From an uncultured Alphaproteobacteria bacterium (GTDB taxonomy: Bacteria > Pseudomonadota > Alphaproteobacteria > HIMB59 > GCA-002718135): a stretch of 64,000 bases of DNA. The DNA lies in NCBI GenBank assembly GCA_902597795.1, contig CACJZA010000001.1:1-64000 (forward strand), in the 5' to 3' direction. The notes below the pieces were generated by a model that had not been told where the DNA came from, did not search any database, and saw only the letters and a list, made by a program, of their open reading frames with translations. Position numbers and translations under genes: made by a program. Each line of letters starts with the position of its first letter. Within the stretch, counting starts at the first letter, position 1. Below are positions 22,101 to 24,229 of the stretch, piece after piece.

Positions 22101-22525
22101 AATATGCATTTATAACAGTATCAGAGACTAGTTTTCAATTTGAATTAACTATATTTAGTGAAAATTTATATAAATACAGACCATTATTAAAAGAAGGAAA
22201 TTTGTTAATATTCAATGTAGATGTTGTAAAAGGTAATACTGATACTCGTTTTATAATAAGGACGATACAGTCTTTAGAGAAAGCTTTTGCTACAAATAAT
22301 TATAAATTTAATATTTATACAAATATAAAAAATATAGATGAATTAAAAAACAATATTTTTGCTGAGAAGGAAATTAGTAATTTTGATAATTTTATTGATG
22401 TCTTTATTACAGTAGATCAAAAATTAGTAAATTTTGATTTTAATAAATATTCTATTAAATCATACAAAAAACTTGACGATTTGGATAAATCAAAAATTTT
22501 AGATTATTCTTTAGAAATATCTTGA
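19121..22525 (+). CDS. dnaE: DNA polymerase III alpha subunit
   Basis: This is the replicative polymerase (1134 residues). The N-terminal PHP domain begins FIHLRSLSSYSL; the catalytic palm carries PDFDIDF with Asp394 and Asp396 and, later, KFDFLGLTTL with the third aspartate. GPGRGSGAGSLVAW is the nucleotide-binding palm motif, and helix-hairpin-helix and OB-fold regions follow (VCGAILDIKERSNKDG near residue 970). The PHP metal-site histidines appear lost (see findings), so proofreading would rely on DnaQ. Position after lolD is the normal alphaproteobacterial order. It ends the long co-oriented run that starts at nuo. Confidence 0.97.
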   Translation: MNNPFIHLRSLSSYSLSESTLKITNLVDLAKKNDMPAIAITDNNNMFGVFEFSKECVKNNIQPIIGTSINLLDVVVNNQISQVTFLVKNEIGYRNLLELSSLSHLNEGNNVGIYFSQLEKFSEGLFCYIGGEFNPLLLLNKENKKKDIIQLISNFKKVFKQNFLFEIQRINDQNIDVFEKEFINLSKEFDIPLIGSNNIKYANKDDYSAHDALLCIAQKSTINNSQRNISNENIYFKSNAEMYANFEDIPEIIQNNLNISLSCNYFPESTKPQLPEFKNDLDLSAEDFLLKTSELGLGKKIKEKNIKKIEIYTDRLKYENEIIIRMGFAGYFLIVADFVNWAKEQSIPVGPGRGSGAGSLVAWCLGITDLDPLEYELLFERFLNPERVSMPDFDIDFCQTRRDEVIEYVNNKYGSECVAHIITFGTLASRAAVRDIGRVLEVPYGEVDSFAKLIPFNPSNPLTLSESIKSEKSLQERISSDERISNIIDVSLKIEGTHRHASTHAAGVVIGHEKLSKVVPLYKDQNTNTNATQFSMKYVEEAGLIKFDFLGLTTLSIIDDCIKLILKENKDFLINKIPLNDTKTYDQLSKGDTVGIFQLESNGMGSVLRQLQPDRFEEIIAVVALFRPGPMDNIPSFCNRKHGREEIKYLHSMLEDVLKETYGIIVYQEQVMQIAQVLSNYSLGEADLLRRAMGKKIQKEMDMQKSRFIEGAVQNNIQKKEASKIFDLVDKFAGYGFNKSHAAAYALIAYQTAYLKANFPHEFLTATLNYSIDRTEKIILLKQEIERLNINFLKPDINFSDPLFSIETNDTLKSIRFGLSAIKGVGLKSISSMVDERNKNGKFKSIIDFMNRVSKEVINKRQLEKLIQAGAFDSIELNRSKLFNNVPKFVELYGVEKNINQEMLFEESEISFEDKNLFNQNYEKWKHADILSNELEVIGFYFSDHPLNHYPKKFFELENIMSFKNYSENYTSNVIKVCGAILDIKERSNKDGKKYAFITVSETSFQFELTIFSENLYKYRPLLKEGNLLIFNVDVVKGNTDTRFIIRTIQSLEKAFATNNYKFNIYTNIKNIDELKNNIFAEKEISNFDNFIDVFITVDQKLVNFDFNKYSIKSYKKLDDLDKSKILDYSLEIS

Positions 22526-22538
22526 AAAAATAACACTA

Positions 22539-22544
22539 TATAAT
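22539..22544 (+). promoter_or_regulatory. Candidate -10 element of the rpsB promoter
   Basis: TATAAT stands 74-85 bases before the rpsB ATG in the only gap between dnaE and rpsB. A start of transcription near 22550 would give a leader of about 73 bases. No convincing -35 hexamer sits at 16-18 bases (TTGAAA at 22522-22527 is only 11 bases away), and AT-rich DNA makes TATAAT frequent, so this is moderate evidence only. Confidence 0.45.
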
Positions 22545-22550
22545 ATTAGA

Positions 22551-22623
22551 TTCCTCAGATTAAATCTAGCACACAGAAAAAACCGGTGTTTTTATTTCTG
22601 TGGAGGTCAAACCGGAGGAGAAA
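22551..22623 (+). promoter_or_regulatory. Structured rpsB mRNA leader, probable S2 autoregulation site
   Basis: The leader contains an 8-base-pair stem, CACAGAAA (22572-22579) with TTTCTGTG (22595-22602), extended by two A-T pairs beyond an A-A mismatch. Its loop begins CCGGT (22583-22587), a perfect complement of ACCGG (22611-22615), which shares two bases with the Shine-Dalgarno GGAGG (22614-22618). This would be an H-type pseudoknot masking the ribosome site. A second segment, TTCCTC (22551-22556), can also pair with GAGGAG (22615-22620). Ribosomal protein S2 is known to repress rpsB-tsf translation in E. coli through the leader; applying that here is inference. Confidence 0.6.
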
Positions 22624-23385
22624 ATGAATTTACCTGAAGTTAAAATAGAAGATCTATTAGAGGCTGGAGTCCATTTTGGTCATAATGTCAGAAGATGGAA
22701 TCCAAAAATGCAAGAGTACATCTTTGGTACTAGAAATAACATACATATTTTTGATTTAAGAATTACATTAGATTTATTAAATACAGCACTAACTAAAATT
22801 CACGAAACTGTATCAAAATCAGGAAAAATTCTTTTTGTGGGTACTAAAAAACAATGCAGTGATGTTGTTAAAGATTTAGCAATGATAAATAATAATTTTT
22901 TTGTTAATAAAAGGTGGTTGGGTGGTACTTTAACTAACTGGAAGACAATTTCAAACTCAATAAAAAGGTTAGAAGAAATTGAAATATTTTTAAAAGATAA
23001 TGAGTTATCAAAAAATTTATCTAAAAAAGAACTACTAGATATTTCAAGAGAGAAACAAAAACTTGATTTAAATATAGGTGGTATTAGAACTTTGAATGGA
23101 AAACCAGATCTTCTAATAGTATTTGATGTTATTAAAGATAAAATTGCTGTCAAAGAGGCTAATAAGCTAAATATACCAGTAGTTGCTATTGTAGACTCAA
23201 ATGCAGATCCAGATAATATAGATTACGTTATTCCAGGCAACGATGATGCGCTTAGATCTATAAATTTATACCAAAATTATTTTTCTAAAACAATTGAAGA
23301 TGCCTCAAGTTTTCAAGATCAAATTAATGAAAAAGCAGAAAAGATAGGTGAAGAGTCTTTAAAAAAGGAAGATAAAAATGACTAG
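22624..23385 (+). CDS. rpsB: 30S ribosomal protein S2
   Basis: This is a small-subunit ribosomal protein (253 residues from the ATG at 22624). The N-terminus [18 protein letters not shown], then [27 protein letters not shown] and [25 protein letters not shown] are family hallmarks. The ATG is preferred over a GTG at 22600 because it follows a strong Shine-Dalgarno GGAGG at 22614-22618 with 5-base spacing and gives the standard start. GGAGG also occurs at 22602-22606. The gene overlaps tsf by 8 bases (ATGACTAG), so both are probably controlled through the same leader. Confidence 0.98.
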
Positions 23386-24229
23386 TACAACAGAGCTTAT
23401 AAAAGAACTAAGAGAAAAAACTGGTGCTGGTTTTTTAGACTGTAAAAAATCGTTAGAAGAAAATGATAATGATATTAATAAATCAATTGAATCATTAAGA
23501 AAAAAAGGATTAGCCAAGGCATCAAAAAAAAGTGATCGTGTCGCAAATGAAGGAGCTGTAGGAATTTATTCAAATAAAGATTTTACGGTTTTAATTAAAG
23601 TAAATAGTGAAACTGATTTTGCTGCAAAAAGCGAAACTTTTTTAAACTTCCTTGATACATTAGGTGAAATTGTTTTACAAAAAAATCAAAATCTTGATAA
23701 AGAACAATTCCTAAACTTAAAATATGAAAATGGTAGTGTTCAAGATTATTTTAATGCTATGATTGCTAAAATTGGAGAAAATTTAATATTAAATGATTTA
23801 ATTATTAAGGAAAATAAAAATTCTAATTATTCTTATTACATACATAATAGCTATAAAAATAATATTGGAAAAATATTATCTTTAATAGAATACTCTTGTA
23901 AAAATATCCATAATGACGTTGAAATTTTATCTAAAAATTTATGTATGCATATTGCAGCTATGAAACCTGAATCTTTAAATATTGATGATTTAGATAAAAG
24001 TTTAATAGCAAATGAAGAAAAAATTCAAAGAGAATTAATTTTAAACTCTGGAAAACCTTTGAATATAGTTGATAAAATTTTAGAAGGTAAAATGAAAAAA
24101 TATTTCAGCGAGGTTACATTATTAAATCAACCTTATATTTTAGATCAAGATAAAACTGTAAATCAAATAATTAATGAATATTCTGAAGATGAATACAAGA
24201 TAATTTCTTTTGAACTTATTAGTTTATAA
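23378..24229 (+). CDS. tsf: Elongation factor Ts
   Basis: This is the guanine-nucleotide exchange factor for EF-Tu (283 residues). [20 protein letters not shown] at the N-terminus is the UBA-like domain that binds EF-Tu, followed by [20 protein letters not shown] and [15 protein letters not shown], the core motif whose Asp-Phe pair inserts into EF-Tu. The C-terminal half is more diverged and asparagine-rich, as elsewhere in this genome. It is translationally coupled to rpsB by the 8-base overlap and is followed one base later by pyrH. Confidence 0.97.

Follow-up and report, generated by a model that had tools for sequence, protein, structure and literature searches.

In E. coli, ribosomal protein S2 represses rpsB-tsf through the leader of these genes and needs bS1 as a helper to do so (PMC10931766). 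The available text of this 2024 review places the ribosome-binding site outside the S2 operator and calls the mechanism of repression unclear for that very reason. The same text describes pseudoknots that embrace the ribosome-binding site in 2 other E. coli systems, S15/rpsO and alpha-operon/S4 (PMC10931766). What the leader described here would share with these is a pseudoknot stabilized by a ribosomal protein over the ribosome-binding site, an analogy that implies no homology. Both the proteins and the folds of the S15/rpsO and S4 systems differ from those of the S2 leader.

The rpsB motif was reported by Meyer et al. 2009 from Pelagibacter, metagenomes, and most Alphaproteobacteria. In the available text of that paper the motif consists of a P1 helix, P2/P3 helices that are short or absent, and a pseudoknot between J2-3 and a 3' extension, and examples from Alphaproteobacteria and Gammaproteobacteria are placed in a single motif (PMC2704228).

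The window, which is the whole stretch of 64,000 nucleotides analyzed here, contains an rpsB leader element that is this motif, and is not new, by the features given in the available text of PMC2704228. The earlier note had raised membership in the motif reported from SAR11 as a possibility; this is borne out, since all of the structural features named in that text are present. The element shares with the motif its position directly before rpsB, its occurrence in Alphaproteobacteria, a long P1 helix (8 bp in the window), a conserved J2-3 loop, and a pseudoknot of about 5 bp with the 3' extension that follows P1 (CCGGU/ACCGG). It differs in that P2/P3 amount to almost nothing in the window's family, where the window itself shows none or only a few weak pairs, which the definition permits, and in that the pseudoknot strand in the window's order is fused to the Shine-Dalgarno sequence (SD). 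The element is thus known, here in a compact, SD-fused form typical of this order.

The rpsB leader and its layout

The gap between dnaE and rpsB is 98 nt long up to the ATG at 22624 and holds the whole leader element. The features of the locus are as follows, in window coordinates:

ending at 22525: dnaE, upstream of rpsB, named from a reading of the sequence
22539-22544, plus strand: TATAAT, immediately beyond the dnaE stop codon, a possible -10 box for transcription of rpsB, from the sequence
22562-22571, plus strand: AAATCTAGCA, a conserved unpaired box adjoining the 5' side of P1, from the family alignment
22572-22579, plus strand: CACAGAAA, the 5' strand of P1, from sequence and covariation
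22583-22587, plus strand: CCGGU, the J2-3 loop pentamer and 5' strand of the pseudoknot, from sequence and covariation
22595-22602, plus strand: UUUCUGUG, the 3' strand of P1, from sequence and covariation
22603-22606, plus strand: GAGG, a conserved SD-like box after P1, 17 nt upstream of the AUG
22611-22615, plus strand: ACCGG, the 3' strand of the pseudoknot, from sequence and covariation
22614-22618, plus strand: GGAGG, the rpsB SD, 5 nt before the AUG at 22624-22626 and sharing GG with ACCGG
22624-23385, plus strand: rpsB, ribosomal protein S2 (PF00318, 288.5 bits, E 1.3e-86), with an ATG start at 22624
23378-24229, plus strand: tsf, elongation factor Ts, an open reading frame named by sequence and gene order

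The start of tsf overlaps the 3' end of rpsB, and the transcript is presumed to be common to both. Past tsf the gene order continues with pyrH-like and frr-like genes, named by a reading of the sequence. Among relatives that carry a name, the closest are MarineAlpha5/Pelagibacteraceae bins and single-cell genomes of uncultured Alphaproteobacteria from the sea, which suggest a place in the AEGEAN-169/HIMB59 group.

The stem that the earlier note described is present, at 22572-22579 with 22595-22602, and the positions that it gave for CCGGT (22583-22587) and for ACCGG (22611-22615) agree with the sequence, as does the GG that it saw shared between ACCGG and the SD (GGAGG, 22614-22618). In the window, CACAGAAA and UUUCUGUG form 8 perfect pairs, and loops of 3 nt (22580-22582), 7 nt (22588-22594), and 8 nt (22603-22610) allow an H-type pseudoknot. 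The pairing would take the first GG of the SD, and the 3' end of the pseudoknot lies 8 nt from the ATG at 22624.

Conservation was scored on 70 distinct leader segments taken from 112 of the 113 leaders of the window's family, L050 being left out as too short. The mean major-base frequency is 0.956 in the hairpin columns and only 0.569 in the flank from -45 to -11, while the AAATCTAGCA box, at 0.951, is on par with the hairpin and is a possible protein contact. A CA directly before P1 is common across the class and also found in E. coli, and so is the GAGG box, which is replaced in a sister family of the same order.

TATAAT is found in its exact form in 42 of the 70 segments and, with near forms, in 51, with 43 of these at -33/-32 from P1. 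It is only suggestive of a promoter, since a consensus scan for promoters and terminators over 22400-22700 found no spaced sigma-70 pair; the scan found no terminator. Lying about 33 nt 5' of P1, TATAAT may give a leader about 73 nt long. A second hairpin further upstream (TAGATT..AATCTA, 22547-22568) was rejected as a chance feature, being present in 1 of the 70 segments. Its CCUC could pair with the SD, and the minimum-energy fold uses that pairing; CCTC/CTCC occurs in 9 of the 70.

The folding energy is unremarkable (z = -0.34 for the element and -0.33 for the whole leader), so that thermodynamics alone do not favor the element and the comparative evidence is the strong part. When the leader was shuffled by dinucleotides around a fixed SD, 4 of 5000 shuffles produced a hairpin of 8 bp whose loop contains a pentamer able to pair with one that overlaps the SD, and 137 of 5000 produced a hairpin lacking such a pentamer. 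In crude energies that include no pseudoknot energy model, the pseudoknot helix has -6.6 kcal/mol and an extended hairpin, which uses part of the loop and competes with the knot, has -7.7 versus -6.1 kcal/mol for P1 alone. SD/anti-SD pairing is put, just as crudely, at -10.2 kcal/mol in the window and -6.9 in a common family form. Values such as these would allow for competition between knot, hairpin, and SD/anti-SD pairing.

Conservation and covariation of the 2 helices

CCGGT and ACCGG are both kept in all 113 family leaders, a count that includes the window as well as genomes repeated from 2 sources and comprises 36 distinct elements. Because the element is almost invariant here, covariation within the family is nearly nil and says little (1 compensatory pair, reached in 34 of 500 shuffles). 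L094 carries a compensatory change in P1, CACAGGAA/TTCCTGTG, in which GAA/UUC has become GGA/UCC.

The sister family (13 leaders: L130, L135, L140, L268, and L272-L280) has a P1 of unrelated sequence, GUUAAUAGA/UCUAUUAAC and variants, with compensation in 8 of 9 pairs. An unguided consensus fold of these leaders also yields 8 compensatory P1 pairs, and in a permutation whose null includes the partner search, all 13 have at least 7 of 8 pairs, against a null maximum of 12. The loop reads CCGGUG in 12 of the 13 and UCGGUG in 1, with variation in the pseudoknot limited to one side of one pair. Although the GAGG box is replaced, this family retains AACCGGAGG, once in the form AACCGGGGG.

Since the window's family hardly varies, we turned to a sample of the class with about 1 genome per family, where an S2 match is present in 138 of the 142 genomes. 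The 136 of these outside the order gave 130 leaders, or 129 after L271, which has no start codon, was dropped; start codons and P1 partners were picked by script. The anchor of the exact-complement pentamer test is missing in 32 of the 129. A looser anchor is missing in 26; the P1 and SD counts omit these and cover the other 103 class leaders. Alignment A1 consists of 97 sequences, 91 class leaders and 6 of the 36 distinct family elements; leaders with a long or doubtful 5' boundary (L148, L169, L179, L188, L202, L214, L226, L230, L239, L243, L249, and L265) were excluded from it.

In A1, 97.5% of cells are paired versus 83.4% in shuffles and 28-45% (at most 44.5%) with the partner slid, and some of the unpaired cells are one-column alignment shifts. 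Changes on both sides occur in all 7 aligned P1 pairs and in 3 of the 5 pseudoknot pairs. For P1, 93 of the 103 class leaders have at least 7 of 8 pairs, while permutations that include the partner search give a mean of 52.5 and a maximum of 61. The pseudoknot taken alone is 97.5% paired, versus 4-56% (at most 56.1%) for slid versions, and has 10 double-change cells versus 0.4 in shuffles. This last count is not decisive alone, because slid versions reach up to 8 double-change cells and 4 pairs.

The pentamers themselves change jointly across the class, as CUGGU/ACCAG, CCAGU/ACUGG, UCGGU/ACCGA, and CCGAU/AUCGG. When anchored by position only, a changed 3' pentamer has its exact complement upstream in 7 of 15 class leaders, whereas 2000 pentamer swaps gave 2.3 on average and never more than 6. 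CCGGT is present together with ACCGG in 98 of the 129 class leaders, and in L200 and L242 ACCGG faces CUGGU with a U-G wobble (by eye). The script finds a matching changed partner in 19 of the 29 leaders that have no ACCGG near the start, and in 16 of these 19 a Watson-Crick pair is replaced on both sides by manual count. L160, L196, L210, L215, and L234 pair by eye but break the rules of the script or fall outside its stretch, and L183 keeps 4 of 5 pseudoknot pairs. Among the 29 we recognized no motif in L219, L260, and L266, and the partner in L259 looks like chance. Taken over the 129 leaders, there is no clear case of a change in CCGGT left uncompensated in ACCGG. As judged from these alignments the pseudoknot is real, with both helices covarying at the class level, and the earlier note's proposal of a loop that pairs with a site overlapping the SD has in this respect held up.

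The window also permits another reading of the same letters. AACCGG occurs twice, in the loop and in the site, and since CCGG is palindromic the 2 strands form a direct repeat as well as a complementary pair, so that only variants from other families can separate pairing from repetition. In the absence of a pseudoknot, AACCGG could be a repeated protein-binding box that is complementary merely by its palindrome, as both window copies would allow. The variants CUGGU/ACCAG and CCAGU/ACUGG, and GGGGU/ACCCC in E. coli, are complementary yet are not repeats. These non-palindromic forms refute the direct-repeat reading at the class level, and we give it almost no credence.

A resemblance to 16S rRNA was also considered and rejected. 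CCGGUG..AAACCGGAGGA in the leader resembles CCGGUGAUAAGCCGGAGGAAGG in helix 40 of 16S. There, CCGGUGAYAAGCYGGAGGAAGG or a close form is found in most of 22 genomes, a set that includes the window's own (L290), and looks much like the two pseudoknot strands of the leader together with its SD. The search pattern was too strict and matched 22 of 142 genomes. The leader pseudoknot is changed in G124, G210, G211, G233, and G236, while the CCGGUG 5' strand of 16S is unchanged in these 5 informative genomes. Sequence mimicry of 16S is rejected because leader and 16S do not change together.

Relation to the E. coli S2 operator and to Rfam families

We built a model, R1, from 97 alphaproteobacterial leaders, using P1 only, with no pseudoknot and no gammaproteobacterial sequence. 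In the window's own genome (71% complete) its single match is at the element. It has 108 matches in the class, and 107 of them are followed by an S2 match on the same strand within 300 nt; 20 of the 107 genomes with matches contributed no training sequence. The only class match not upstream of rpsB is G190:C49:21700-21747 (26.9 bits). Outside of the training set R1 scores L099 at 45.1 bits and L098 at 24.4 bits. It misses the sister family (best 10.9 bits, E 1, with six loci given; G130 has no match), 5 of the genomes from which training sequences came, and L102, a gammaproteobacterial locus.

R1 also matches the E. coli leader (21.4 bits, E 0.0015, 88 kb searched). Since a model made from Alphaproteobacteria alone finds this leader, the alphaproteobacterial and gammaproteobacterial S2 operators most likely form one homologous family, as far as sequence comparison can tell. 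The E. coli operator (t44/tff RNA, RF00127) has the same order of CA, P1, GAGG, NNNA, and pseudoknot and the same CAC..GUG stem; with the register set by eye, CACGUAUC/GAUACGUG is its stem, GAGG comes next, and the pseudoknot pairs GGGGU with ACCCC. It differs in these pentamers, in longer P2/P3 helices, in the 24 nt between knot and AUG, and in an SD that lies 12 nt past the knot (ACCCC to GAGG). The placement of the ribosome-binding site outside the structure is not seen in the window, where GG belongs both to the SD and to the pseudoknot strand. The earlier note had called the element built differently from the gammaproteobacterial one, which does not hold for the fold, given the R1 match, but does hold for the relation to the SD, fused here and 12 nt apart in E. 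coli.

The earlier note had proposed a search against Rfam. When a 141-nt stretch was searched against 4227 families, the two best plus-strand matches by bits were RF01815 ('rpsB', 17.4 bits, gathering 40) and RF00127 (t44, 21.9 bits, cut-off 44, aligning CACAC..GUGGAGG..AAC), which are the two rpsB leader families; both are sub-threshold, and the window has no match to either at the gathering threshold. A 301-nt search again gave RF01815 and did not give t44. Two genomes of this order were searched at E <= 0.001, and a joint search of 11 of its loci (30,795 bases) was run at E <= 1; neither family matched in either case. Among the 142 class genomes RF01815 matches 87, with 36 above its cut-off, and RF00127 none; RF01815 was not detected in E. 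coli, so the two families do not cross-detect. It would seem from this that a marine order escapes the present Rfam models. Rfam tags both families as 'Gene; sRNA', although both are rpsB leaders.

That the leader answers to S2 at all is a separate matter. A conserved structured element for rpsB translation could instead be, for example, a 30S standby or S1 site, or could respond to EF-Ts, and the available text of PMC2704228 and PMC10931766 names no ligand outside Gammaproteobacteria. We consider this improbable given the similarity to the E. coli S2 operator and the linkage to rpsB in 107 of 108 model matches.

Overlap with the Shine-Dalgarno and a proposed switch

The 3' strand of the pseudoknot overlaps the SD in 107 of the 113 leaders of the window's family. 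The exceptions are 3 leaders scored without overlap by the script and 3 with no 4-nt SD match; one of the first 3 is the window, for which the script chose AGGAG over GGAGG, and the count was left as is. In the sister family 12 of 13 leaders overlap and 1 has no SD match. In the rest of the class (103 leaders) the SD is overlapped in 6 and lies downstream of the knot in 75, and the remaining 22 have no SD match of 4 nt. L242, outside of these 103, reads AACCGGAGG just before the start and is another fused case. The overlap covers 1 or 2 SD bases, being a single G in ACCGGGAG forms, and the distance from knot end to AUG is 7-10 nt in the window's order versus a class median of 18. From these sequences the SD fusion looks like a lineage-specific geometry, typical of the HIMB59-like order. 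We did not find it in print in the open-licence literature, and it may be visible in a figure or alignment of Meyer et al. 2009.

We favor, with a probability of about 0.7, a compact member of the rpsB motif in which a pseudoknot stabilized by S2 directly occludes the SD; S2 as the ligand, the knot in the cell, and the repressing step are what we infer. P1 would present the CCGGU loop, whose pairing with the downstream ACCGG would close the H-type pseudoknot. With ACCGG fused to the SD, as in the HIMB59-like order, the knot would make SD bases unavailable to the anti-SD. Free S2 in excess of what 30S takes up would bind and stabilize the knot, a 30S subunit could then not pair with the SD bases held inside it, and translation of rpsB would fall, with that of tsf falling too through coupling.

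The motif in general does not depend on SD occlusion, because E. coli represses without an SD in the operator as the available text of PMC10931766 describes it. The overlap could then be a by-product of genome compaction in an S2 operator where S2 and S1 on the knot block 30S with no masking of the SD. This would fit the E. coli ribosome-binding site outside the operator (PMC10931766, available text), with its gap of 12 nt from ACCCC to GAGG, the 75 of 103 class leaders that carry the same motif with the SD downstream of the knot, and the short leaders of this order, with 7-10 nt from knot to AUG against the class median of 18. The fusion is, on the other hand, kept in 119 of 126 leaders from 2 families whose P1 has wholly diverged, and is for that reason at least stable. 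We regard the by-product explanation as unlikely, though far less so than a ligand other than S2, and retain direct occlusion of the SD as the preferred reading.

Given that the ribosome-binding site in E. coli lies outside the operator and that bS1 helps there (PMC10931766, available text), the fusion may have simplified the system, or may be a by-product of short leaders. Our tentative extension, somewhat short of an even chance, is that the operator of the HIMB59-like order has shrunk to about 54 nt and acts as a minimal switch directly on the SD, with which S2 alone, perhaps without S1, can shut off rpsB translation, and that the sister family keeps this switch although nothing is left of the original element there but the CCGGUG loop, its geometry, and the ACCGG fused to the SD. 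The SD-fused lineage is a natural minimal construct for SD occlusion, to be set against the spaced form of other Alphaproteobacteria, and the comparison shows that the CCGGUG loop and the knot geometry are what survives change of P1, P2/P3, and GAGG.
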